A DNA stretch of 20,877 nucleotides from a virus: the IMG/VR virus record IMGVR_UViG_3300007540_000157, positions 1 through 20,877 of that record; one strand, given 5' to 3'. The notes beneath the pieces are model-generated. The model did not search any database. It was given only the letters and a program-made list of their open reading frames with translations, and was not told the DNA's origin. Shown here piece by piece: positions 4,772-20,524 of this stretch (position 1 is its first letter; every line of letters starts with the position of its first letter). A program made the translations under genes and the position numbers.

Positions 4772-5584
4772 ATGTCAAATTCTACCTTACAGGGTTGGGG
4801 TAGAGGCACATGGGGTCAAGGTCCTTGGAATGAGGAAATAAATGTTGTTGTTACTGGACTAGTAGGAACAACTGGTTTAGGCACTCCAAGTGGGATACCA
4901 GGTGTAAATGTAGCTGCAACAGGTATTTCTGCAACAACCTCCATAAGCCAAACTGGTGCTGGTACAGTTACCTATGCTGTTACTGTTGTTTCTGGCAATC
5001 CTTCAAATCATCCATATTACAATCAGGGATCTACTAACAAGTATGCCATTGATGGATCAACGGCATCAGGAGATGTTGTCTTAACCTTATATGAAGGCAA
5101 CACATATAAGTTTGATCAAAGCGACAGTAGTAATGATGGGCATCCACTTAGATTTTATTTAGATGCAGCTAAAGGTACGGCTTATACTACGGGAGTAACT
5201 ACTAATGGAACTCCAGGTCAAGCGGGTGCTTACACTCAAATAACAGTAGCTGACGGTGCACCAACATTATTTTATCAATGTAGTAGTCACTCCTTAATGG
5301 GAGCAACGGCTAATACTCTAGGTATCCCTAATGTTTCAACAACAACGGGAGCATCAGTAACTAATGTTATTGGTACAACAGCGTTAGGTTCAGAAACTGT
5401 TTTTACAGAAGTAACAGTGGGTGTTACATTAGCAGCAGCACAAACAACACTAGATAGTGTTGTCACAATACCACAATGTGTGGTATTCTTAACTGGAATT
5501 AGTGCTACTGGTGGCACTGGAGAAGAATTAGTATATAGTTTAATAGTTCCAGATCAAATAGCTAACTGGCGAGAGGTGGCATAA
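4772..5584 (+). CDS. beta-rich virion protein with an embedded cupredoxin-like copper site
   Basis: 270 residues. The start has the WGRGTWGQGPWNEE motif seen in many marine-phage structural proteins. Residues 26-58 hold short beta repeats (VTGLVGTTGLGTP, TGISATTS). Residues about 66-183 look like a cupredoxin: a strand pair with DVVLTLYEGNTYKFDQSD, then GHPLRF, and finally LFYQCSSHSLMG. The likely type I copper ligands His124, Cys170, His173 and Met176 are all present. The C-terminal part repeats the first motif (IGTTALGSETV, TGISATGGTG) and ends IVPDQIANWREVA, a typical ending in this family. It abuts the gene before and overlaps the next start by 1 nt. Copper or another ligand could be bound, or the fold could be purely structural. 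A virion location is inferred from its neighbours. Confidence 0.65.
   Translation: MSNSTLQGWGRGTWGQGPWNEEINVVVTGLVGTTGLGTPSGIPGVNVAATGISATTSISQTGAGTVTYAVTVVSGNPSNHPYYNQGSTNKYAIDGSTASGDVVLTLYEGNTYKFDQSDSSNDGHPLRFYLDAAKGTAYTTGVTTNGTPGQAGAYTQITVADGAPTLFYQCSSHSLMGATANTLGIPNVSTTTGASVTNVIGTTALGSETVFTEVTVGVTLAAAQTTLDSVVTIPQCVVFLTGISATGGTGEELVYSLIVPDQIANWREVA
5467..5487 (+). repeat. perfect 9-bp inverted repeat inside a gene
   Basis: AATACCACA and TGTGGTATT are separated by ATG. The hairpin lies in the coding sequence of the cupredoxin-containing protein and is not followed by a T run, so it is not a normal terminator. It may be chance. Confidence 0.4.
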
Positions 5585-6847: not shown

Positions 6848-9385
6848 ATGTCTTTACTTCCAACAATAGGTGCAATTGACCAAGACACAGGTTTCTATAA
6901 TGGTGTTGCTACACAGTCAGTGAGGTTTGATGATGGTAGTAGTGCTTTTTTAAGTAGAACTCCAGCAGGTGCTTCCACTAATTTAAAAGCATTTACTTTT
7001 TCAACTTGGGTCAAAAGAAGTAGTGTATCTGGTGCTACACACACGCTATTTTCAGCAGGTGCAAACTCTAATGATGTTACTATGATTAGATTTGAGGGAA
7101 ATGGCATAACCGACACTCAACTTTCTTTTTTTAATTACACAAGTGGAAGTTTAACCACTACCCTTAAAACAAAAGCAAAATTTAGAGATTCTTCTGCTTG
7201 GTACAATATTATTGTTGCTTGTGACACAACACAAAGTGGTGCTAATAAAGCAAAGATTTATGTAAATGGTGTTTTAGTTGATGATTGGCACGATTCAAGC
7301 CATGACGAATATCCTAATGACAATTCAACATTTCAATTTGGTAATAATGTTGTACATAGGCTTGGCTCTCTAGCTTATTCTACTACCCAACTTTTTGACG
7401 GGTATATGGCAGAAACTAATTTTGTAGAAAATACACAGCTTGCACCATCAGTATTTGGAGAGCTAAAAAATGGTGTCTGGATACCTATAGCACCTTCACC
7501 AACTTATGGTACAAATGGTTTTAGATTACAGTTTGAAGATAATGCTGTAGGTACTCCAGAAAATGAAGGAGTTGTTGAAGATGATAATATTGGTAGGGAT
7601 TCATCTGGTGAACACAATCATTTTACATCTAGTGGTATAGTCGCATCTGATTGTGCTATGCCTGATAGTCCTGAGAATAACTTCTGCACCCTTAATCCTT
7701 TAGACAAAGTTTTAACTTCATCTGCTCTTTCAGAAGGCAATTTAAGTGTTTCAGCAGGCACTGGCAGTGCTTGGAATAATATTATAAACTCAACTTTTAG
7801 CCTTACATCTGGAAAGTGGTATTGGGAAGTTTGTCAAAGTGGTTCAGGAGGTTTTGGTAAAATTGGTGTTAGACAAAATAATTCATTGACTTCAGCAGAT
7901 GGTCCTACAGCAGGAGCATCAGAAGTATATTTATATGGTGGTAATAAGCATCAAGGCTCAACTTCAACAAATAGTGCTTACTATGGTTCAAATATGTATG
8001 CAGATGGAAATATTTTTGGTGTTGCAGTGGATATGGACGCAGGGAAAATTTGGGTAGCAAAAAATAATACTTATGGAGGTAGTGCCGACCCTACAACTGG
8101 TAATGGTGCTATGTTTACCAATCTTACTGAACCACAATCACCATCATTTTCTAGTTATAATAATGCAGGGACGTTTAATTTTGGACAAGATGATACATTT
8201 GCAGGAAACAAAACAAGTGGTTCAGCTAATGCCACAGATTCTGAAGGAATAGGTCAATTTTATTATTCGCCACCATCAGGCTTTCTAGCAATATGCACAG
8301 CTAATCTTCCAGAACCAACCATAAGTCCTAATGCTGATACACAAGCTGATGACCATTTTAATACAATATTATATACAGCAAATGGTTCTGCTTCAAGAGC
8401 CATAACGGGGGTTGGTTTTAAACCTGATTGGTTGTGGGTAAAATCAAGGTCTGCTACATATTATCATGGGTTGTGGGATTCAAGCAGAACAAATAAATCT
8501 GCATTATACTCAAATGCTACAGATGATGAAGATACTTCAACAGCAGGAACATTAGGTTCACTTGATGCTGATGGTTTTACTACACCAAATGTAAGTGGTG
8601 GTGGTTTCATTAATATTGGTTCTACAACATACGTTGCTTGGAACTGGAAAGCAAATGGTGGCACAACCTCAACAAATGATGCAAGTGCAACAAGTATAGG
8701 CTCACAAGATAGTGTGATTCAAGCAAATACCACAGCAGGATTTAGCATTGTAACTTATACTGGTACTGGTTCAAATGATACTTTTGCTCATGGAGTGCAA
8801 GTTAATGGTGTAGCTACAGCACCAAATTGGATTATACATAAAAGAAGAGATTCTGCTCAACATTGGGTTCATTATCATGTGGGAATTGGAAATACAAGGT
8901 CAGTCTTATTTAATACAGATGCACAAAATAGTGCTTCAGCAGTTAATTTTAATAATACATCACCTACACCAACTGTTTTTTCATTAGGCACAGATGCTTA
9001 TGCAAATGCTAGTGGTGGTACTTATGTAGCCTATTGTTTTGCTGCTATAGAAGGCTACTCAAAGTTTGGCAGTTATACTGGAAATGGTAATGCAGATGGT
9101 ACGTTTGTCTATACTGGATTTAGACCTGCTTGGGTTCTTATAAAAAAATTTAATGCTAGTGGTACGGATTGGATGCTAGTGGATTCTACAAGAGATACTA
9201 TAAACCCAGTAGATAACACTTTGTTTCCAAGTGGAAACACTCAAGAATTAGATGGTGATGATAAAGATTTTGTTAGTAATGGTTTTAAACATAGGTCTAC
9301 TGGTTCTTCTGAAAACGCATCAGGTGACACATACATATACATAGCATTTGCCGAAGTGCCATTTAAATATGCTAATGGTGGCTGA
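6848..9385 (+). CDS. multidomain lectin-like putative receptor-binding protein
   Basis: 845 residues, beginning 1 nt after the previous stop. Residues about 20-225 look like a concanavalin/LamG-type domain (AFTFSTWVKRSS, then KAKIYVNGVLVDDW). Residues about 287-445 resemble a SPRY-like domain (GKWYWEVCQSGSGGFGKIGV, then IFGVAVDMDAGKIWVAKN), followed by YYSPPSGFLAICTANLPEP, a linker I know from marine phages. Residues about 500-845 hold three related beta units starting near 502, 632 and 739, each with a YTGNG-like strand and a GFxPxWxxxK strand (GFKPDWLWVKSR; APNWIIHKRRD; GFRPAWVLIKKF). The C-terminus FAEVPFKYANGG is typical for the family. Multiple carbohydrate-binding-type folds in one long virion protein suggest adhesion to the host surface. 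Ligand unknown. Confidence 0.7.
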   Translation: MSLLPTIGAIDQDTGFYNGVATQSVRFDDGSSAFLSRTPAGASTNLKAFTFSTWVKRSSVSGATHTLFSAGANSNDVTMIRFEGNGITDTQLSFFNYTSGSLTTTLKTKAKFRDSSAWYNIIVACDTTQSGANKAKIYVNGVLVDDWHDSSHDEYPNDNSTFQFGNNVVHRLGSLAYSTTQLFDGYMAETNFVENTQLAPSVFGELKNGVWIPIAPSPTYGTNGFRLQFEDNAVGTPENEGVVEDDNIGRDSSGEHNHFTSSGIVASDCAMPDSPENNFCTLNPLDKVLTSSALSEGNLSVSAGTGSAWNNIINSTFSLTSGKWYWEVCQSGSGGFGKIGVRQNNSLTSADGPTAGASEVYLYGGNKHQGSTSTNSAYYGSNMYADGNIFGVAVDMDAGKIWVAKNNTYGGSADPTTGNGAMFTNLTEPQSPSFSSYNNAGTFNFGQDDTFAGNKTSGSANATDSEGIGQFYYSPPSGFLAICTANLPEPTISPNADTQADDHFNTILYTANGSASRAITGVGFKPDWLWVKSRSATYYHGLWDSSRTNKSALYSNATDDEDTSTAGTLGSLDADGFTTPNVSGGGFINIGSTTYVAWNWKANGGTTSTNDASATSIGSQDSVIQANTTAGFSIVTYTGTGSNDTFAHGVQVNGVATAPNWIIHKRRDSAQHWVHYHVGIGNTRSVLFNTDAQNSASAVNFNNTSPTPTVFSLGTDAYANASGGTYVAYCFAAIEGYSKFGSYTGNGNADGTFVYTGFRPAWVLIKKFNASGTDWMLVDSTRDTINPVDNTLFPSGNTQELDGDDKDFVSNGFKHRSTGSSENASGDTYIYIAFAEVPFKYANGG

Positions 9386-9962: not shown

Positions 9963-10541
9963 ATGCCTTTAGCAAAGCTACAATTCAAGCCCGGAATAAA
10001 TAAAGAAACAACATCTTATTCTAATAAAGGTGGATGGAATGATTGTGATCTTGTTCGGTTTCGTTTTGGCTATCCAGAAAAAATAGGCGGATGGGAAAAG
10101 TACTCAACAAGTACTTTTCTTGGTGATTCTCGTTCTCTACATTCTTGGGCAAACTTACAAGGAAATAAATATTTAGGTATAGGTACAGAATTAAAATTCT
10201 ATATTGAAGAATCTGAAGGTTATAATGATATAACACCTTTAAGAAGAAAAGTTGTTGGTGGAGAAGTTGTATTTGAACTTGGAGTGGGAGAAACAGTTAA
10301 CTTTACTGTAAGTGGACTAGTAGGAACCACGGCACTTGGAAGTGAAATAGTGAACGCAGTTTCAAACGCACAATTTACTCCAGTGATAGTAGATGGTTTA
10401 TCTTCTACCGCAGAGCTTGGCACAGTGGCAGTACAAACAGACTTATTACTTGTCACTCAAGTTGGTACAGTGATAATAGGTGGTGATGCACATGATGGTG
10501 GAGCTACAAATAGTAACACTACGATTGATGTTAATGGATAA
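9963..10541 (+). CDS. P22 gp10-like stabilisation protein, N-terminal part ended by in-frame TAA
   Basis: 192 residues. Residues 1-90 (LQFKPGINKETTSYSNKGGW, then CDLVRFRFGYPEKIGGW and YNDITPLRRK) are the conserved N-terminus of the marine-phage version of the P22 gp10 packaged-DNA stabilisation protein, which closes the tail machine below the adaptor. In relatives this is normally followed without interruption by a beta module and the main domain. Here, about 95 residues of another beta type come first (SGLVGTTALGSEIV, then GLSSTAELGTVAVQ), like those in the 4772 product, and then a TAA at 10539-10541. The frame continues unchanged 3 nt later in the next gene. The two parts are thus either two chains, a readthrough product, or an assembly artefact. 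Confidence 0.65.
   Translation: MPLAKLQFKPGINKETTSYSNKGGWNDCDLVRFRFGYPEKIGGWEKYSTSTFLGDSRSLHSWANLQGNKYLGIGTELKFYIEESEGYNDITPLRRKVVGGEVVFELGVGETVNFTVSGLVGTTALGSEIVNAVSNAQFTPVIVDGLSSTAELGTVAVQTDLLLVTQVGTVIIGGDAHDGGATNSNTTIDVNG
10093..10121 (+). repeat. long perfect hairpin inside the gp10-like gene
   Basis: GAAAAGTACT (10095-10104) pairs perfectly with AGTACTTTTC (10110-10119) around a CAACA loop. In RNA two G-U pairs extend the stem to 12. A short T run is part of the 3' arm. The stem is AT-rich and lies in a coding region, so it is a weak terminator at best. Confidence 0.45.
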
Positions 10542-10544
10542 AAA

Positions 10545-12086
10545 ATGGCTATAACTTTTACAACTTCGACTTCTGCTACACAAGTCACAGTTAATGATTC
10601 TGGTCATGGAGCTTTGGCAAATGATTTTGTTACTTTTAGTAGTGCTAACACAGGTAATTCATCGTTAAATACTCAAATAAATAATGAGTTCTCTATTACA
10701 TCAATAACAAATGCCAACAGTTATATCATCACACTTAGTGAAAATGCTGCTGCTACTTTGTCTAGTGCAGGTTCGGCAGATGCAGAGTATCAAGTAACCA
10801 TAGGAATTAACACTGTTGTGCCCGGTGATGGATATGGTGCAGGTACTTGGGGAGCAGATGGATGGGGGTCAGCCTCTGGAGAAACTGCTGGTGGTGGCAC
10901 TCTACGTTTATGGTCGCAAGATAATTTTGGCGAAGATTTGATTTTTAATCAAAGAGATAGTTTTATTTATTACTGGGATAAAAGTTTAGGTTTATCTACG
11001 AGAGCAAAAAATTTACTTGAGCTATCTGATGACGCTCCTAAAAAATCAAGAAAAGTTATTGTCTCTGAAAGAGATCGTCATGTTCTTTGTTTTGGAGCAA
11101 ACCCTATAGGATCGGATGTACAAGATCGAATGCTTGTAAGATTTAGTCATCAAGAAAATCCTTTTTTATGGACACCCACTGCAACCAATACAGCAGGTGA
11201 TTTAAGAATCGGTTCTGGTTCTGAAATAATAACTGCGGTTAAAACAAGAAGAGAAACAATTATACTTACAGATACTTCTGTACATAGTATGCAGTTTATT
11301 GGTCCACCTTTTACTTTTGGAATAAATCAACTCGCAAGTTCTATCACAGTCAAAGGTTTTAATTCGGCAGTAGCCGTAGGTGATTCTGTTTTTTGGATGG
11401 GCTATGATCGTTTTTATGTTTATGATGGTCGTGTTCAAGTTATACCTTGTTCTGTAAGAGATCATGTATTTCAAAATTTCAATGAGACACAATCAGATAA
11501 AGTTTTTGCGGGTGTTAACTCTGCTTTTGGAGAAGTGTTTTGGTTTTATCCTTCTGAAACTAATTCTGGTGCGAATGGCGGCACAGACGAAAACGATAAA
11601 TATGTTGTATACAACTATGATCAGAAAATCTGGTATGTTGGCTCACTAGCGAGAACATCTTGGGTTGACAGAGGAGTGTACCAATATCCTTTAGCTACAG
11701 ACTCTAGCTTTGTGTATAATCATGAAAAAGGTAATGATAACGATGGCACTGCCTTTACATCATTTATTGAATCAAGTCCGATTGACATACAAGACGGTGA
11801 TCAATTTGTTTTCTTACGAAGAATGATACCAGATGTTAGTTTTGATAACAGTGATACTGGAATAAGCACTGATAATAATAAAGCCGTTTTTTCTTTAAAA
11901 GCACAACGAAGCCATAACGGTGGTTTTATAAAAACATCAACGAACAATGTTACACCGACCACGGAGCTTAATCATTTAAGATTGCGTGGAAGGTCTTTTG
12001 GTCTTAGAGTAGAGAGTACAACACAAGGTGTAAACTGGAGATTTGGAACACCAAGAGTTGATGTGAGAGTGGATGGAGATAGATGA
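10545..12086 (+). CDS. P22 gp10-like stabilisation protein, main part
   Basis: 513 residues, in the same frame as the preceding gene and separated from it only by TAA and AAA. Residues 1-90 are a beta module (TQVTVNDSGHGALANDFVTF, then NSYIITL) that is also present in the 2072-2590 product. Next comes GAGTWGADGWGSASGE, then the main domain: LWSQDNFGEDLIFNQRD, RHVLCFGANPIGSDVQDRM, SHQENPFLWTPTATNTAGDL, TSVHSMQFIGPPFTFG, SVFWMGYDRFYVYDGRVQVI. This succession is characteristic of the large gp10-like proteins of marine podoviruses. There is no good Shine-Dalgarno before ATG 10545 (only GGAT), which fits coupling to the upstream stop or stop readthrough. The probable role is part of the tail hub that keeps packaged DNA in place. 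Confidence 0.7.
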   Translation: MAITFTTSTSATQVTVNDSGHGALANDFVTFSSANTGNSSLNTQINNEFSITSITNANSYIITLSENAAATLSSAGSADAEYQVTIGINTVVPGDGYGAGTWGADGWGSASGETAGGGTLRLWSQDNFGEDLIFNQRDSFIYYWDKSLGLSTRAKNLLELSDDAPKKSRKVIVSERDRHVLCFGANPIGSDVQDRMLVRFSHQENPFLWTPTATNTAGDLRIGSGSEIITAVKTRRETIILTDTSVHSMQFIGPPFTFGINQLASSITVKGFNSAVAVGDSVFWMGYDRFYVYDGRVQVIPCSVRDHVFQNFNETQSDKVFAGVNSAFGEVFWFYPSETNSGANGGTDENDKYVVYNYDQKIWYVGSLARTSWVDRGVYQYPLATDSSFVYNHEKGNDNDGTAFTSFIESSPIDIQDGDQFVFLRRMIPDVSFDNSDTGISTDNNKAVFSLKAQRSHNGGFIKTSTNNVTPTTELNHLRLRGRSFGLRVESTTQGVNWRFGTPRVDVRVDGDR

Positions 12087-12348: not shown

Positions 12349-13173
12349 ATGGGTATTTTTAGAGACATAACTAAAACATTAAAGAAAGCCGCTCCATTAA
12401 TTGGTGCAAGTATTGGTATGTATTTTGGTGGTCCTATGGGTTCAGCGGCACTCGGAGGTGCACTCGGAGGTGGAATTGGATCATTGGTCGGTGGAGGAGA
12501 TACTGATGATGCTTTGAAAGCTGCTCTTCTTGGTGGAATTGGTGGTTATGCTTCCGCTGGAGGAAACTTTACAACGGCTGGGCAAGCAGCATCTAATGCA
12601 AGCAACGTAGCAAGCAACGTAGCAAGTGCACCAACAGTAACTGGAATTGAATCTGCTAGTGCGGGTGCTGGAGGAGATTTTATATCTAGCTCTGCTATTC
12701 CAAAATTTACCCCACCAGTAGAACCATCAATGTTTGACAAAGCACTTAGTTTCGCTAAAGCAAACCCAATGTTAACCACGGCAGGGGTTGGTACTTTATT
12801 AGGAGCAGCAAGTGGTGGTTTCGATGAGGAAGTGGTAGGACAGAAAGAAACAATGAGAGCTTATCCAGTAGGCAAATCTAGGTTAGGTACTGGACGAATT
12901 GGTAATAAACTGTATAATTTAGATGATCCAGATGAACGCAGACAATATTTTGAAGACAATAGAAAAAGAAGAGAACCAAAAACTGTTTATTCGGCTGCAG
13001 GAGGCGAGGTCAACGGTCCAGGAACGGGAACATCAGATTCAGTACCTGCTAGATTATCAGATGGAGAGTTCGTAGTAACTGCAAAGGCTGTCCGTGGAGC
13101 AGGTGGCGGGGACAGAGATGTCGGTGCCGCAAGAATGTACGACATGATGTCGCAACTAGAAAGAGTAGCATAA
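12349..13173 (+). CDS. Gly-rich internal virion / DNA-ejection-type protein with DGEFV C-terminal domain
   Basis: 274 residues. Residues 15-75 are a long Gly/Ala-rich hydrophobic region with glycine-zipper spacing (LIGASIGMYFGGPMGSAALG, then ALLGGIGGYASAGG), as in membrane-inserting phage ejection proteins. Residues about 75-160 are low-complexity Ala/Ser with two short tandem repeats. A second small hydrophobic stretch (LTTAGVGTLLGAASGG) follows. The C-terminal 60 residues contain GPGTGTSDSVPARLSDGEFV, then AKAVRGAGGGDRDVGA and MYDMMSQLERVA, a very conserved ending in marine-phage proteins of this type. No Shine-Dalgarno is seen before the ATG. It heads a run of four likely internal virion genes, comparable in position to T7 gp14-gp16. 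The ejection role is inferred from composition and position. Confidence 0.6.
   Translation: MGIFRDITKTLKKAAPLIGASIGMYFGGPMGSAALGGALGGGIGSLVGGGDTDDALKAALLGGIGGYASAGGNFTTAGQAASNASNVASNVASAPTVTGIESASAGAGGDFISSSAIPKFTPPVEPSMFDKALSFAKANPMLTTAGVGTLLGAASGGFDEEVVGQKETMRAYPVGKSRLGTGRIGNKLYNLDDPDERRQYFEDNRKRREPKTVYSAAGGEVNGPGTGTSDSVPARLSDGEFVVTAKAVRGAGGGDRDVGAARMYDMMSQLERVA
12448..12471 (+). repeat. 12-bp tandem repeat, two copies
   Basis: GCACTCGGAGGT occurs twice in a row and encodes ALGG ALGG in the glycine-zipper region. Copies are identical in DNA, which suggests a recent duplication by slippage. Confidence 0.8.
12598..12621 (+). repeat. 12-bp tandem repeat, two copies
   Basis: GCAAGCAACGTA occurs twice in a row and continues with GCAAGTGCA. 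It encodes the ASNV repeat of the Ala/Ser linker. The copies are identical in DNA, so a recent slippage event is likely; number of copies may vary between relatives. Confidence 0.8.
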
Positions 13174-14156
13174 TGGCAGATCAAAACGTAACCCAAACTC
13201 AAACCGTTAGGTTAGCACCTTTCCAAGAAGATTTTTTAGCCGATATATTTGCAAGTGCAGAAGGATTGACGGGCGAAGGCTCGCAAATGCCTTTTTCTGC
13301 TCAACAGTTAGCAGCTTTATCTCCAGCTCAACAACAAGCAATATCAAGTGCAATGGGTGGTATAGGAGCTTATTCTCCTTATATGCAAAGAGGTGCTGAA
13401 GCACTGGGTCAAGGAATAGGTGCCGTGGGTGCAGGACTTGGAACAATTGGTTCAGCGATAGGTCAAGCAGGTCAAGCAAGCTATGATCCAACTTCTTATC
13501 AACAGTTCATGGATCCATATACAGAAGACGTTATTGCCGCAACACAAGCCGACATAGGTAGACAAGGACAAGTACAACAAAATCAACTAAGTGGTAATGC
13601 TATAAGTGCAGGTGCTTTTGGTGGATCTAGGCAAGGTGTTGCACAAGGTGAAATTGCAAGAAATGTTATGGATCAACAAGCAAGAACGGGGTCACAATTG
13701 AGGTCTCAAGGTTTTGCTCAAGCACAAAGTGCAGCACAACAAGCGGCACAACAACAATTAAAACAAGCACAACTTACTGGTCAATTAGGTCAAACAACTG
13801 GTGCTCTTGGTCAGTCCATTGGTGCTCTTGGTATGCAGACAGCAGGACTTGGTCAACTAGGACAACAGATGGGTACACAAGATATTAATACATTGCTAGG
13901 TATTGGTGGTCTAGAACAAGGTCAACTTCAAAAATCGCTTGATATAGCAAGAGCAAACTCACTTGCAGAACAAGCATTACCATATCAGCAAATTGGTTTT
14001 ATGTCTGATATTTTTAGAGGAGTTCCATCTCTGCAACAGACTTATTCTCAAAGAACGGCTCCCGGTCCAAGCAAGAGTTCTCAAATGTTAGGTCTAGGTA
14101 TCGCAGGTCTAGGTGCTGTAGGACAAGCGGGTGGCTTTAGTAAAATGTTCGGTTAG
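13173..14156 (+). CDS. Gln/Ala/Gly-rich internal virion-type protein
   Basis: 327 residues, starting in the stop of the previous gene (TAATG). The N-terminal part (APFQEDFLADIFASAEGL, then LSPAQQQAISSAMGG and YSPYMQRGAEALGQG) leads to a central conserved block: YQQFMDPYTEDVIAATQADI, then QLSGNAISAGAFGGSRQGVA. After this comes a long Gln/Ala helical region, a Gly-Leu-Gly-Gln repeat stretch (QLGQTTGALGQSIGALGMQ), and a C-terminus ending in a Gly-rich hydrophobic segment (LGLGIAGLGAVGQAGGF). I know the FMNPYT/GAFGGSRQ block from many marine podovirus and T7-like phage virion proteins. High Gln/Ala helical content fits a protein that unfolds and refolds during ejection. No enzyme motif is seen. 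Confidence 0.6.
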   Translation: MADQNVTQTQTVRLAPFQEDFLADIFASAEGLTGEGSQMPFSAQQLAALSPAQQQAISSAMGGIGAYSPYMQRGAEALGQGIGAVGAGLGTIGSAIGQAGQASYDPTSYQQFMDPYTEDVIAATQADIGRQGQVQQNQLSGNAISAGAFGGSRQGVAQGEIARNVMDQQARTGSQLRSQGFAQAQSAAQQAAQQQLKQAQLTGQLGQTTGALGQSIGALGMQTAGLGQLGQQMGTQDINTLLGIGGLEQGQLQKSLDIARANSLAEQALPYQQIGFMSDIFRGVPSLQQTYSQRTAPGPSKSSQMLGLGIAGLGAVGQAGGFSKMFG

Positions 14157-14167
14157 GAAGATTAATA

Positions 14168-15805
14168 ATGAATGATCCTTTACAAAGAAAAATGTTTCGT
14201 CAAGCGGGTATGTCTAAACAACCTATGGGTATTCTTGCATCATCACCAGAGTTGATGACCACGGCACAACAAGCCATGATGAATAATCAACCTGTTAAAG
14301 CACAAAGTGGTATGATGACTTCATTATTTCCACCAAATCAAACTATCACAACCAGATCTACTGACAGAATTATACCAGGTTTTGAACAAGATGTTGTTGG
14401 AATAAATGCACAAACTCCTTTACAAGTTTTAAAACAAGAACAAGAAGCAAAAAATAAAACAATCGATACTTCTCTTTCCGAACCAAAACCTAATATTAAT
14501 GATGTTAACAAAAAGATTATAGATGGCTCTATTGTTAAAAAGAAAGAAGATTATACCAATGCTAAGAATCTTGGTTTTAAAACTACCGATGGTGGTTCTT
14601 TCAAAGAACCTCTTTCTCAAAAATTTGAAAATCAATTAAATAAAGTAACTGAAATTCAAAAAGATGCTGTTAGATCTTTAGAAAGTGCAAACACTAGTGC
14701 TGATCAATATCAAATGGGTGGCAAAACAGTTGAGCAAAGAATTAATAATTTCACATCACTTGTTAATCAAAAAGGACAAGAACCCACATTAGCTGATGTG
14801 AAAGATGATGCCGTTAAGTTATTAGGTTTTGACCCCGATCAATTAGATCAACAATATGATGAAGATAAACAAGCTTCAATTTGGTTAAACATGATGAAAG
14901 CTGGATTAGCTGTTGCTTCTGGAGAAAGTAGTAATGCTTTAACTAACATAGCTAAAGGTTTTTCTTTTGGTTTAGATCAGTATGGTAAAGACATAGGAAA
15001 ACTAAAAACAGAATTAAAAGCAGATAGAAAAGATGCTGCTAACACTATGTATAAATTATTAAAGGATGAGAAATCTGAAAGACTCGCAAAGAAAACATTA
15101 GAGATCCAACAAGAACAAGGTCTTTTAAACATTCAAATGAAATATGTAGGAGATCAAAAAGCTAAAGCTATGGCTGCATATAATATGAAAATGGATGGAG
15201 CTAAATGGAATGTAACTTTGGTAGGTACATTAGCAAAAATGAAAGGCGATGAAGCTGCAAGAGCTCTTCAAAAAGAAAATTTAGAAAAAACATTTAAACT
15301 TGGTTTAGCTAAAGCGACACCAAAAGAAATAGTTTTCTTGAGACAGTCTGGAGATATAAAATTAAAGCCTGGCATTACAGAAGAAATACCTTTTGGTGGT
15401 GATGGCTACTTTAATCAATTTGATGTGACTCCTACGGGTAAGAAAAAATTAGCAGACATGGCTTCTAATACTACAACTGGTATGAATACAGACTTTAAAT
15501 ATGAAGGCAGAAACTATGGTGCAACAGGTCAAGTCGGAGCCGTTTATCTTCCAAATCTTGAGGGCGTTAGTGAAGAGAAGAAGAAAACTTTTGGAATAGC
15601 TGCTGCCAGACACATGAAATCTTTAGAAAAGATTACAAACTCATATGACAGATTAGGAGCTATTTTATCTTTTGCTAGACAGCAAGGAGCTAAAATTAAA
15701 ATTGATCAACTTCCTCCTGATATGGTAAATGATTTAAATGAGAAATCTGGTGGAGAGACTTCGAAGTCATTGAAAGAGTTATATTCAGATATACTTGTAC
15801 GATAG
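14168..15805 (+). CDS. helical internal virion-type protein
   Basis: 545 residues with an AGGAAG site before the ATG. The N-terminus (KMFRQAGMSKQPMGILASSP, then ELM) is a block I know from marine-phage proteins at this place in the genome. Residues about 80-220 are hydrophilic. Residues about 225-285 contain LLGFDPDQLDQQYDEDKQ, then IWLNMMKAGLAVASGESSNA and LTNIAKGFSFGLDQYGKD, the best conserved part. Residues 285-375 are a long charged helix, probably a coiled coil. A small beta part and a helical C-terminus (KSLEKITNSYDRLGAILSFA) finish the protein. No transglycosylase or other enzyme motif is apparent. It resembles T7 gp15 in position and in being largely helical, but I see no direct sequence match to it. 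Confidence 0.55.
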   Translation: MNDPLQRKMFRQAGMSKQPMGILASSPELMTTAQQAMMNNQPVKAQSGMMTSLFPPNQTITTRSTDRIIPGFEQDVVGINAQTPLQVLKQEQEAKNKTIDTSLSEPKPNINDVNKKIIDGSIVKKKEDYTNAKNLGFKTTDGGSFKEPLSQKFENQLNKVTEIQKDAVRSLESANTSADQYQMGGKTVEQRINNFTSLVNQKGQEPTLADVKDDAVKLLGFDPDQLDQQYDEDKQASIWLNMMKAGLAVASGESSNALTNIAKGFSFGLDQYGKDIGKLKTELKADRKDAANTMYKLLKDEKSERLAKKTLEIQQEQGLLNIQMKYVGDQKAKAMAAYNMKMDGAKWNVTLVGTLAKMKGDEAARALQKENLEKTFKLGLAKATPKEIVFLRQSGDIKLKPGITEEIPFGGDGYFNQFDVTPTGKKKLADMASNTTTGMNTDFKYEGRNYGATGQVGAVYLPNLEGVSEEKKKTFGIAAARHMKSLEKITNSYDRLGAILSFARQQGAKIKIDQLPPDMVNDLNEKSGGETSKSLKELYSDILVR

Positions 15806-15817
15806 TTTAGGTGACAA

Positions 15818-18800
15818 ATGGCTACAGAATACACATACAAAGTAGATGGGCAAGATTATCTGTTTTCAAATGAAATTGGTCAAAAAGAAGCTGAAAGAAT
15901 AATAAGAAATGAACAAGCCGTTGCTTCTGGTGAAGTTGACGAATACTCGTATGAAAATCCAGAAGATGAAGGTGCCTTACAAGAAATAGTAGAAGGTATA
16001 GGTTCTGGTTTGATAGCTATACCTCAAGGTGTAGCTGAAACAGGTGCTAGTTTAATTGACCTTGCAGCGGGAACCAACTTCACAGAAGCCGTGACTAGAG
16101 CAGGTAATTCAGTCAGAGATGCATTAGACATTGATCCAACAGGAACTGCTGGGAAAGTTGCAGAAGGTTTAACTCAATTTGCTATTCCTGGAATAGTTGC
16201 CGCAAACATAGTTGCTAAAGGTAGTAGACTTGCGAAGATAGCCAGAGGTCAACCAGAGCTACGAGGCAAACAATCCATACTTGATAAGTTTCGTGGTAAA
16301 AGACGAGGCAGACAAATTGGAGAAGATTTAGGTAGAGCTCCGAAAGGCAGAGAATTAAATCTTACAAAGAGTCAAAAGTTTGGTGAAGCGGCTCGACAAA
16401 TTGGAGCAGCAGGTCTCGCAGATGCTCTTGTTTCAACAGATGGTACACAAACTTTAGCAGACTTTTTTGAAGGTGGTCCTACGCAAACAAAAGAAACTTT
16501 AGGTTTAGAAGGTAGAGAGTTAGCTGCAGCAAGATTGTATAATAAAGTAAAGCATGGATTAGAAGGTAGCGTTTTTGCAGGTATCTTACCACCCGTCATA
16601 GGTGCGGCTATTGGTGGTACAGCGAAACTTGGTGCACGAACCACGAGAGAGGTTGGACTAGGTTCTTTGGGTGCAGGTGTAGGTGCAGGTTATGAAGTTG
16701 TTGGTTCTGCAATTGAAGGAGAGATACCAGAGTTCGCAGATGTTTTGGGAAGTGCAGCTAAAGGAGCAGGTGTCGGTGTCGGTGTCGGTGTCGGATCAAG
16801 AGCTCTTGGTGCAACAGCAGATGTAGCTACTGGTGCTATACAAAGACAAGAAGACAGATTATTAAAAGGAGAGTCTATAAATAGTTTAGATAAAGCAGTG
16901 GCTAGAGCAGTCTCTGTTTTTAGGTATAGATCTTTTTTAGATCCAGCAACGGCTAGACTTAAATCATTAGTAAACCCAGCTGTTGAAGGTGATATAAAAA
17001 TTGCAGAAAAACAATTAAAAGATATTGATAAAGAAATTAAAATTGCTTTGAAAGATCCAGACTACAATCAATTAAGTGGGTACAACAAAGAAAAATTAAT
17101 AAATAATTTTATGGATGTTTTGGAAGGTGCAAAATATGAAGACTTGCAGATACCAAAACCTTTGTTTGAAGCTTTTTCAAAAGCCAAAAAATCTATTGAT
17201 AGATTATCACAGAAAGTAAAAGAATCTAGCATAGCTCGAAACTTACCAGAAGAAATAACAGAAGGTGAGAGAAGAAGTGGTATGTTAAGAAAACAAGATT
17301 TTATAGATATTGTAAATCAGAACATCAATGAAGGTGGATATCTTTCAAGACTGTATCAAATATTTAACGATGATACTTTTAAGTTAGCTGATGATGTTAG
17401 ATCTTCACTAGTTGATCAAATAGTTGAGGGAAAAGGTCTTGATATTTCTCATGTGAAAAAATTTTTACAAGATGAACAAGGGAGCTATTCTATAGATGAT
17501 GCTTTTGTGAGAGATTGGAGAGCAGGTAATGTAAAGCTAACTCCCCTACAAGCAGACAGATATATAGATAACGTAACTAAATATTATAAAGGTTTAAAAA
17601 ATGCAAAACCTAGAAGTTCTACTGGTGTAAGTATACCAGTTGTTAGACTTAACCCTGGCGTTGTTAATAAACCTCAAGTTGATAATGAAGTAATTAAAGC
17701 TATCATGGGTGAAATAAGAACTCCAAAAGAAGCTTATATACATACAATCGCAGAGCTCTCTAATTTTATCGCAGCTGACACATTTTATACTGGTTTTAAA
17801 AGATCAGCAGATGCATCTATAATTGGCACTGCAACAAGAAATGCAGAGAACATAGCAAGAGGTGGAGCGGGCGATGAGATTCCTTTATATGTAAATACAA
17901 ATGCAGAAATTCAAGCAAGAGTTGATCAAATAAACGCAGAACGATTAGCACAAAACCCACAAGCAACAATCGAGAACGGTGGTTTAATCCGAACATTAGA
18001 TCAAGCTCCTGATGGGCAAAAAGAAATGGATGAGATTCTAGAGTCTATGAGAACCAGAGGTGGTAAAATGGACTATGTTGTTTTAGGAAGAGATCCAGAA
18101 GCAGGTGGTGGTCAAGGTGGTACTGCTAGTAGAAGTGTTTATGGCGAGATGTATGGATATGCTATACCAAGACCTATGTTTGATGCTATGACAAATGTTG
18201 CAAATTCAAATCTTAGCCCCATGGTTGATTTTTTTAGAACTTTTTACGGACCTTTATTACAATTAAAAGGTGTTTCTCAATATGCTAAAACAATTCTATC
18301 TCCTATTACTCAAGTTAGAAACGTAACGTCTGCCGCCATGTTTGCTTTAGCTAATGGTAATGTTGGCAGAGGTGCGGGTGTTATGGAATCGGTTGATATG
18401 GTTTTAAGAGATCTTATTGATAAAGACATGAAAATAAAAGGTACTGACTTTAATTTAAATGATGATGTTCTAGATTTTTTAGTTGATTTACAGAAGCGTG
18501 GTGTTATTGGTAGCTCGGCTCAATTAAGAGAGATACAAGCAAACTTAAAAAAAGGTTTAGGATACAGAGACACAGGTCCTACTGGAGAAACAATACAAAA
18601 CTACACAAGAAATGATTCTCAAGGTATTGTTAGCACTGTGCAAACACAGACTTCTCCAAACTTAACAGGTGTCTTAGACATCCCAACTAAAATTAAAGGG
18701 TTAAAAGGAGGACTAGGGGCTGTTGCAAAAGGTGCTAATAATTTAGGTAGAGGTTTTTTAAATAAAGCAGAGGGTTTATATAAAGGTGGTGATGATATTT

Positions 18801-20524
18801 GGAAGATATATAATTATCAGTTTGAATTAAATAAACTTAGAAATGCTAGAACAAAAATGATGAACGCTGGGGATGCTTTGGAGGCAGAAACAAAGTTTTC
18901 TAGATTTATAAACAAAGCTGATGATGAAACTATTGATGAGGCTATGAAAAGATATGCCGCAGATAATGTCCGTAATTTAGTTCCCAACTATGAATTAGTT
19001 CCAGAATTTATAAAAGGATTGAGAATGGTTCCTCTTGGTAACTTCGTGGCTTTCCCCGCAGAGATACTAAGAACAGGTTTTAATATTTTAAATACTGCTG
19101 CAAAAGAACTATCTAGTGATGACATTGCTATTAGAGAAATAGGAATGAAAAGATTAATGGGTGGAGTTACTGCTTTTTCTGTAGCAGGTGTCGGACTTCA
19201 AAGATTTGCTCAAAAATTAACTGACACAAGTGATGAAGAACTTAGTGCAGCAAATAGATTAGCGGCACCTTGGCAAAGAAACTCACAGTTTATTCCAGTA
19301 GGTAAAGATAAAAATGGTAATTTTGAATATATAGATTTTAGTCACACCAATCCTTATGATCTTTTGTCTAGAGGATTTAGAACTATGTTAAACACATATC
19401 AAGAAAGTAGCAAACTAGGAAAAGGTTATGGAGAAACTGCTACAAAAATTGCATACGAAAGTTTAACTGAATACTTACAACCTTTCTTAGATCAATCTAT
19501 GATATTTGCGGCAATTCAAGATACCATGCCAAAATCAATCGGAGGGAGAGAAGGTCAAACGATGTCTGGTGCAAAGGTATATAGAGAAGGTGATAGTAGG
19601 TCAGTTGCTTGGGAAAAATCTTTAGTTCATATATTTAATACATTAATGCCAAATGCTATTCCTGTGAGAATTCCTGTAGGTGCAGAACTTGGTATTGCAG
19701 GAGGGAATTTTCCAGCAGGTGTAAAATCTGTAGAACTTGGTAGATTTGCAAGAGGTGTACTTGATGCAGACTCTAAAGAACCATCTACAGGCAGAGAGTA
19801 TGATACTGGATCAGAATTATTTAGAGCATTTACTGGTGTTAACACTCAAATAATAGACAATAAAAAAGTAGCCTATTTTAAAGCACAAGAATTTAAAGGT
19901 GCACGATCCTCGGCTGCTACTGTTTTTAACGAAGCAGTTAACTTAGACGTAGCAGATAGAGATCAATTTTTAACTGCTTATCAAAGAGCTGACGATTCTA
20001 GACTTAGAGCGTTCAGAGTTTTTGCTTCACATGTAAATGACCTAAGAGAATTAGGTATAAGTAGAAGTGAATTGATGAAACAGTTTAAAAAAGCTGGACT
20101 AGGCACTGAAGAGACAAATGCAGTAATGCGTAATCGATATTTACCATTTACTCCTAGCCAGAAAAAAATAGACGAAGCTCGTAGGAAAGGTATCTTCGTT
20201 CCTCAAGGAGCAATAAATAGATTAAAATCATTAAGAAGAGGTATGTCCTTAAAAGAAGAACCATTGTTTGGTATTGAAGGAAATGAAACATCAGATGATC
20301 TAATGGATTTCTTTAGTTCAAATCAACAACCTCCCGTTCAACCCGTTCAATCTGCTCCTCAACAAGTTGTCGATACGAAAAATATGGACATAGATATAAA
20401 TAATATGGTAACTAATGCTTTTAACATACAAACAAATCCAGTGACTAGAACTAGTCCTACGGTTCTTGGAAGCGACCCAACAAGCGTAGCAAAGAATATG
20501 GATATTGCTAGGAGAACAGCGTGA
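15818..20524 (+). CDS. giant internal virion protein (1568 aa), probable DNA-ejection channel component
   Basis: 1568 residues, the longest gene here, with TAGGTGA before the ATG. Near the N-terminus is EGIGSGLIAIPQGVAETGAS, typical of giant virion proteins of marine podoviruses. Residues about 245-345 are Gly/Ala-rich and hydrophobic, with GVGVGVGVG encoded by a hexanucleotide repeat. Residues 380-780 are charged and helical. Residues about 805-850 (GPLLQLKGVSQYAKTILSPI, then NVTSAAMFALANG), about 1060-1090 (LRMVPLGNFVAFPAEILRTG) and about 1162-1182 (KNGNFEYIDFSHTNPYDLLS) are the blocks I recognise from such giants and from large polyvalent phage proteins. The C-terminus has a Gln/Pro-rich tail. 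No lytic transglycosylase or RNA polymerase motif is seen. Position, size (T7 gp16 is 1318 aa) and neighbours suggest a role like gp16. The stop overlaps the next start by 4 nt. Confidence 0.65.
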   Translation: MATEYTYKVDGQDYLFSNEIGQKEAERIIRNEQAVASGEVDEYSYENPEDEGALQEIVEGIGSGLIAIPQGVAETGASLIDLAAGTNFTEAVTRAGNSVRDALDIDPTGTAGKVAEGLTQFAIPGIVAANIVAKGSRLAKIARGQPELRGKQSILDKFRGKRRGRQIGEDLGRAPKGRELNLTKSQKFGEAARQIGAAGLADALVSTDGTQTLADFFEGGPTQTKETLGLEGRELAAARLYNKVKHGLEGSVFAGILPPVIGAAIGGTAKLGARTTREVGLGSLGAGVGAGYEVVGSAIEGEIPEFADVLGSAAKGAGVGVGVGVGSRALGATADVATGAIQRQEDRLLKGESINSLDKAVARAVSVFRYRSFLDPATARLKSLVNPAVEGDIKIAEKQLKDIDKEIKIALKDPDYNQLSGYNKEKLINNFMDVLEGAKYEDLQIPKPLFEAFSKAKKSIDRLSQKVKESSIARNLPEEITEGERRSGMLRKQDFIDIVNQNINEGGYLSRLYQIFNDDTFKLADDVRSSLVDQIVEGKGLDISHVKKFLQDEQGSYSIDDAFVRDWRAGNVKLTPLQADRYIDNVTKYYKGLKNAKPRSSTGVSIPVVRLNPGVVNKPQVDNEVIKAIMGEIRTPKEAYIHTIAELSNFIAADTFYTGFKRSADASIIGTATRNAENIARGGAGDEIPLYVNTNAEIQARVDQINAERLAQNPQATIENGGLIRTLDQAPDGQKEMDEILESMRTRGGKMDYVVLGRDPEAGGGQGGTASRSVYGEMYGYAIPRPMFDAMTNVANSNLSPMVDFFRTFYGPLLQLKGVSQYAKTILSPITQVRNVTSAAMFALANGNVGRGAGVMESVDMVLRDLIDKDMKIKGTDFNLNDDVLDFLVDLQKRGVIGSSAQLREIQANLKKGLGYRDTGPTGETIQNYTRNDSQGIVSTVQTQTSPNLTGVLDIPTKIKGLKGGLGAVAKGANNLGRGFLNKAEGLYKGGDDIWKIYNYQFELNKLRNARTKMMNAGDALEAETKFSRFINKADDETIDEAMKRYAADNVRNLVPNYELVPEFIKGLRMVPLGNFVAFPAEILRTGFNILNTAAKELSSDDIAIREIGMKRLMGGVTAFSVAGVGLQRFAQKLTDTSDEELSAANRLAAPWQRNSQFIPVGKDKNGNFEYIDFSHTNPYDLLSRGFRTMLNTYQESSKLGKGYGETATKIAYESLTEYLQPFLDQSMIFAAIQDTMPKSIGGREGQTMSGAKVYREGDSRSVAWEKSLVHIFNTLMPNAIPVRIPVGAELGIAGGNFPAGVKSVELGRFARGVLDADSKEPSTGREYDTGSELFRAFTGVNTQIIDNKKVAYFKAQEFKGARSSAATVFNEAVNLDVADRDQFLTAYQRADDSRLRAFRVFASHVNDLRELGISRSELMKQFKKAGLGTEETNAVMRNRYLPFTPSQKKIDEARRKGIFVPQGAINRLKSLRRGMSLKEEPLFGIEGNETSDDLMDFFSSNQQPPVQPVQSAPQQVVDTKNMDIDINNMVTNAFNIQTNPVTRTSPTVLGSDPTSVAKNMDIARRTA
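16769..16792 (+). repeat. hexanucleotide repeat (GGTGTC)4
   Basis: Four perfect copies of GGTGTC encode Gly-Val pairs in the hydrophobic Gly-rich region of the giant virion protein. Being a multiple of 3, gain or loss of copies keeps the frame, so the length may vary within the population. Confidence 0.9.
20510..20514 (+). promoter_or_regulatory. ribosome binding site for the GTG start of the M15 peptidase
   Basis: AGGAG lies 6 nt before GTG at 20521, inside the end of the giant virion gene. It decides the GTG start for the last gene. Confidence 0.65.

Follow-up and report, generated by a model that had tools for sequence, protein, structure and literature searches.

Two adjacent genes predicted to build one podovirus-type tail nozzle subunit through repeated gene fission

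Two adjacent plus-strand genes, P1 (9963..10541, 192 aa) and P2 (10545..12086, 513 aa), located in a viral DNA stretch of 20,877 nucleotides (hereafter the window), very probably encode two co-translated chains that build one tail nozzle subunit and derive from an ancient, repeated gene fission, with the joint assembly predicted and the coupled translation and tail role inferred. Under this explanation, the gene for a single-chain podovirus tail nozzle of the P22 gp10, T7 gp12 or SU10 type would have been divided into P1 and P2, whose products would fold together, the first two blades coming from P1 and everything else, namely beta-barrel insert, further blades and platform, from P2, thereby closing one seven-bladed propeller in each subunit of a presumably hexameric tail hub, which like podovirus nozzles generally would sit on the adaptor and line the DNA channel. 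The cut would fall where single-chain relatives carry nozzle-tip domains, placing the new chain ends in an insertion, outside the propeller core, and the free C-terminal repeat tail of P1 would constitute a variable appendage of the kind seen in a fibre-like gene of this genome. Ribosomes would end P1 at its TAA and restart at the P2 ATG three bases on, through translational coupling or reinitiation, aided in most relatives by a Shine-Dalgarno (SD) sequence within the end of P1.

The junction and its conservation among relatives

The two reading frames of the window share one phase, running from ATG 9963 to TAA 10539-10541 and, after AAA at 10542-10544, from ATG 10545 to TGA 12084-12086; an earlier sequence-only reading had the coordinates, the shared phase and the TAA AAA spacing exactly right. 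The junction GGA-TAA-AAA-A(TG) (10536..10545, plus strand), a putative termination-reinitiation site, comprises a weak SD-like GGA, the stop, a 3-nt spacer and the P2 start. TAA is an ordinary stop in the window, terminating 10 of its 18 genes, and other genes there likewise abut or overlap by a few bases.

The arrangement was compared across 88 distinct split loci, comprising the window and IMG/VR relatives and falling into clades A (the window's clade) to D, and 192 distinct fused loci. The doubtful locus L213 was excluded from the split set: its apparent split (1087-2628) has no ATG, its ORFs overlap in sequence with residues duplicated at the break (VPFDF on both sides), and it was handled as a frameshift, probably one of assembly. 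Among 80 viral contigs retrieved by searching with P2, P1 immediately precedes P2 in 78, and the remaining 2 are truncated by the contig end. The P2 ATG begins 2, 3, 4, 6, 10, 11, 13 or 14 nt from the first base of the P1 stop, TAATG overlaps are common, and the P1 stop falls inside an SD-like TAGGTG in clade C and inside TAGGAG in clade D. The relative phases of P1 and P2 in the 88 loci are distributed as 21 in phase, 41 and 26, and because only 21 are in phase, the shared phase in the window amounts to about a one-in-three coincidence. It is practically certain that, in this group of marine phages, P1 and P2 are two real genes and that the stop is an evolutionarily kept gene boundary.

Translation of P2 was assessed through the anti-SD duplex upstream of its start, which has a median energy of -6.05 kcal/mol in clade A versus -2.7 kcal/mol at other ATGs within both genes (p 6.5e-15), and ranges from -6.8 to -7.35 kcal/mol in clades B-D. 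The duplex of the window itself is weak, at -3.1 kcal/mol, which counts against the best explanation; the earlier remark that the second ATG is without a good SD sequence holds for the window and its GGA, and does not extend to most relatives. The earlier reading had named one outcome that would refute it, namely that in homologues the second of two separate proteins has a good ribosome binding site of its own, and this is largely what is found, with a duplex of ≤ -4 kcal/mol in 81% of clade A and in all of clades B-D. Coupled translation or reinitiation would be the simplest mechanism for the P2 start.

These comparisons also bear on explanations that retain a single product or treat its loss as recent. 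Readthrough at the TAA, yielding some full-length fusion beside P1, would suit the window and the 20 other distinct split loci in phase, and the fused protein folds well in silico; it is nevertheless very improbable, given that simple readthrough could not link the two chains in the 67 of 88 loci whose frames differ in phase, that the downstream frame is not kept in phase as programmed readthrough with a conserved stop would have it, and that the stops are mostly TAA, with two in a row in L043. Ribosome frameshifting or hopping, producing some fused protein in every lineage, would draw on the close spacing of stop and start, which recalls some recoding sites, but the absence of a common slippery sequence or fixed offset and the ordinary SD-ATG start of P2 in clades B-D leave it just as improbable. 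The distant cultured phages HTVC023P, HTVC027P, CRP-901/902, DSL-LC04 and MinM2 are single-chain, as would be expected if a recent nonsense mutation or sequencing error had struck a normally single gene, yet all close relatives (78-88% identity in P2) keep the split with differing stop codons, offsets and phases, and the chance of such an accident is negligible. Constraint is likewise not relaxed as in a pseudogene disrupted in a few isolates, given dN/dS values of 0.079 (conserved P1 part) and 0.084 (P2 core) and a split present in 88 distinct loci. Because the layout is kept in all of these loci and in all three phases, readthrough, recent nonsense mutation and sequencing error, three of the four options of the sequence-only reading, are excluded as general explanations. 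Its picture of one gene broken by a stop, or of a regulated split, gives way to two separate, translationally adjacent genes, and its fourth option, termination-reinitiation giving two chains, is judged right, the coupling itself being probable from the sequence context.

Nozzle identity and domain layout

Both chains match a single family, phrog_3287, P1 over profile positions 6-123 (E 2.8e-10) and P2 over positions 107-524 (E 3.1e-58), in keeping with the earlier assignment of a conserved N-terminus to P1 and the main domain to P2; neither chain reaches the cut-off of any Pfam or NCBIfam family. A 124-row profile used with hmmsearch matches the solved nozzle chains 9nwi_Y (2.6e-24) and 8zkk_O (2.6e-13), the latter being 'nozzle gp16' of the Vibrio cholerae typing phage VP1, and this places the family with podovirus tail nozzles by sequence profile.

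P1 and P2 were modeled with AF2 as one read-through chain, with the TAA read as Q and an alignment of single-chain and split relatives. The model has a mean pLDDT of 84 and a pTM of 0.82, with values of ~95 for residues 31-100, <50 for the P1 tail (109-193) and 88-97 for most of P2; these describe a read-through chain and not two chains, and the alignment is biased towards a joined fold by the single-chain relatives it includes. Modeling of P1 alone with 66 P1 homologues resulted in a mean pLDDT of 41, about 30-42 in the conserved part, and no confident fold for the tail. The conserved part of P1 is predicted confidently with P2 (~95) and poorly alone (~35), which is suggestive only, as alignment diversity differs and the low score may be partly an alignment effect.

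A Foldseek search with the read-through model returned, among its 29 best PDB matches, exclusively phage tail structures (E 5e-24 to 2e-9), including SU10, T7 and P22 gp10. The predicted fold is shared with the nozzle of Pseudomonas phage Pa223 (9nwi_Y, E 5.3e-24, TMt 0.78), with the T7 gp12 nozzle (9jyz_P, E 1.2e-11) and with P22 gp10 (8eap_D, E 7.0e-11). The pTM of the model and these matches point to a nozzle fold with a seven-bladed beta-propeller and a platform. P1 and P2 together match the podovirus tail nozzle type (T7 gp12, P22 gp10, SU10), and the earlier identification of a gp10-like tail hub is borne out by profile and fold. T7 gp12, P22 gp10, the SU10 nozzle (7z47), 9nwi_Y and 8zkk_O are each one polypeptide, an encoding that is usual for podovirus nozzles without defining them, whereas here two ORFs with a conserved stop and start are found, with the break within an insertion and a repeat tail on the first chain.

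The conserved start of the propeller occupies P1 residues 1-105 (9963..10277), with pLDDT of about 83-96 up to residue 100. According to DSSP on the read-through model, it contains two four-stranded sheets, at residues 24-46 and 56-89, after which strands 93-105 lead into the insertion; it would correspond to about blades 1-2 of a seven-bladed propeller, with blades read from strand order and not from coordinates. SU10 carries Ig-like nozzle domains as an insertion between its blades 2 and 3 (PMC9509320), and in T7 the nozzle tip is reached from a loop of blade 3 (PMC6702177). The SU10 site is where the strand count places the break between P1 and P2. Because two four-stranded units, counted from strand order, precede the insertion in a manner that fits SU10, and in view of the SU10 and T7 insertion sites, P1 is read as probable blades 1-2, P2 as the barrel insert, the other blades and the platform, and the break as lying in the nozzle-tip insertion.

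The variable tail of P1 (10278..10538) is composed of short repeats (about 15-20 aa) of the form GVxxTGxVGTVxV. Repeat unit 1, VSGLVGTTALGSEIV (10308..10352), and unit 2, VDGLSSTAELGTVAV (10389..10433), have repeat matrix scores of 15.4 and 26.5, respectively, and the degenerate unit 3, QTDLLLVTQVGTVII (10434..10478), falls under the matrix threshold and corresponds in alignment to the third VG-V unit seen in relatives. The proposal that the stop sits at a module boundary is sound in that a boundary between a variable segment of ~95 residues and a beta module is real; what had been described as an extra beta segment is a short-repeat tail, with a fold predicted at low confidence. Overlapping tblastn ranges had hinted that the tail copies the P2 head module, a candidate rejected after direct BLASTP (E 3), the tail being a different short repeat.

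The head of P2 (10545..10799) is a predicted beta-barrel module (pLDDT about 83-93) resembling the endosialidase beta-barrel (PF12195) or the E1-FCCH type. The PF12195 matches, with E 0.0019 in the window and 4.9e-05 in the fused relative L148, both lie below the curated cut-off; endosialidase 4hiz is matched by L148 with E 0.001, and BFVD hubs carry the name FCCH-domain proteins. Whereas the endosialidase module belongs to a tailspike, the barrel here is part of a hub insertion. A W/G-rich linker, GYGAGTWGADGWG (10830..10869), connects the module to the propeller. This linker, at P2 residues ~95-105, is a second insertion site in some relatives, with 87-170 extra residues in split loci L067/L068/L071 and L070/L073-L075/L078 and also in fused loci L127, L137 and L150. 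The P2 core (10908..12083), assigned from the 9nwi_Y and 8zkk_O profile matches and Foldseek, would form the other blades and the platform.

Selection was measured in clade A (62 sequences), where dN/dS is low in P1 residues 1-95 (0.079) and in the P2 core (0.084), intermediate in the P2 head (0.168) and highest in the P1 tail (0.517). The tail evolves fast, with a median amino acid identity of 45%. Pairwise identities of the conserved P1 part and the P2 core are correlated (rho 0.50), and those of the P1 tail and the conserved P1 part hardly so (0.03-0.15); judged from these sequences, tail similarity does not track that of the conserved part, and nothing more is claimed. A few striking pairs by eye suggested mosaic exchange of tail repeats, with 0-9 of 1891 pairs per comparison passing a strict test for clean exchange. 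The selection values and identity correlations fit a single functional unit whose parts are separated by a variable segment.

An arrangement in which both chains are made and P1 does not rejoin P2, P1 acting as an independent structural or fibre-adaptor protein and the P2 propeller being incomplete or differently closed, would find some basis in the P1 tail, which resembles fibre repeats, and in the shorter length of some distant PDB hubs. It is unlikely, as the conserved P1 part retains the residues of single-chain hubs under constraint equal to that of the P2 core, is predicted poorly alone and well with P2, and always adjoins P2 where the contig permits. Assembly of P1 and P2 into one nozzle subunit is the preferred explanation.

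Origin of the split and of the repeat tail

Single-chain relatives, both IMG/VR and cultured, encode one ORF of 492-708 aa. The sister group of IMG/VR loci L148, L158, L252 and L256 and the cultured phages named above carry the N-terminal part of P1 in their single chain, which in the closer IMG/VR relatives also holds the beta-barrel module and the core of P2. In contrast to the split loci, these relatives have neither a stop nor a GVSATGxVGTVTV tail between the N-terminal part and the remainder, and pass directly from DITPxR, the end of the conserved P1 part, into the barrel module. Two further single-chain hubs, L118 and L123, reach 1151 and 1064 aa and contain long glycine-rich repeat arrays after the barrel module.

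A quick tree of the conserved parts (119 rows, root not inferred, some forks open) requires two fused/split changes. Clades A, B and C form one clade (98*), sister to the fused L148, L158, L252 and L256, and clade D (L197, L203) is placed among other fused relatives; a single split clade is rejected (delta lnL 81.5, p-AU 0.00037). Transfer of a whole P1 from clades A-C into D was considered and rejected, the N-terminal part of D being nearer to fused relatives than to A-C (best score 416 vs 365 for L203 and 401 vs 357 for L197). On this phylogeny, the split arose at least twice, independently, and both times apparently where the nozzle-tip domain is inserted. Because fused forms surround both split lineages, fission is the more economical direction of change.

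The GVSATGxVGTVTV-type repeat is present at the P1 end in all split lineages, and in clades B and C also at the P2 start. A matrix trained on clade A detects it in 11/12 tails of clade B, 9/9 of clade C and 5/5 of clade D, versus 1/189 fused inserts. A first loose regular expression also fired on fused inserts (TTSAGDVTF) and was replaced by score matrices derived from a single clade and evaluated on the other clades; a matrix trained on clades B-D alone gave false matches to the barrel motif VTFSGAASLGG in 48/189 fused inserts. A pooled matrix also detects the repeat in further genes of phages with fused and with split hubs; among examples, the carrier is often an upstream gene whose product begins MANITGWGRGTWGEGAW.... 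In the window, a putative tail-fibre gene outside the hub (4772..5584, plus strand; phrog_30742 tail fiber, 7.2e-39) contains the repeat type of the P1 tail, with repeat scores of 14-20, and its local alignment with the P1 tail scores 76, the maximum over 500 shuffles being 75. Repeat tails mark both split origins, are nearly absent from fused inserts and occur in fibre-like genes; capture of fibre-type repeats at the insertion thus accompanies gene fission in two origins. The P1 tail may serve in host contact or in nozzle rearrangement.

The N-terminal GWGRGTWGQGPWN of the putative fibre gene resembles the W/G-rich linker of P2, a shared motif that may mark a site of docking or of recombination. 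Elsewhere in the window, 6848-9385 encodes an 845-aa protein with DUF7483 and SPRY domains (PHROG virion structural/tail fiber), and 13173-14156 a DNA-ejection-like protein (phrog_4287). Downstream of the latter lie 14168-15805 (545 aa) and 15818-20524 (1568 aa), both with no PHROG match; the longer could be an internal virion protein.

Significance for the podovirus tail

The DNA channel is gated by the nozzle, a single chain in every solved structure identified in this analysis; in the part of the literature that was searched, no split nozzle is described. In annotations of such phages, the hub appears as two unnamed proteins. The recurrent split points to the nozzle-tip insertion as a place where a break is tolerated and variable appendages can be accommodated. 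A broader and distinctly tentative proposal is that marine podoviruses have repeatedly cut the nozzle gene at the tip insertion to give an obligate two-chain propeller, in which the first chain would display a swappable repeat tail from a fibre-repeat pool and the free tip ends would allow the nozzle to rearrange, or its outer surface to change, while leaving the DNA gate undisturbed. A two-gene nozzle with at least two origins, at one place and with one kind of repeat, amounts to a natural experiment in protein splitting within a virion machine that is essential. Should the two chains indeed form one propeller, hub assembly and opening could be tested in this system.
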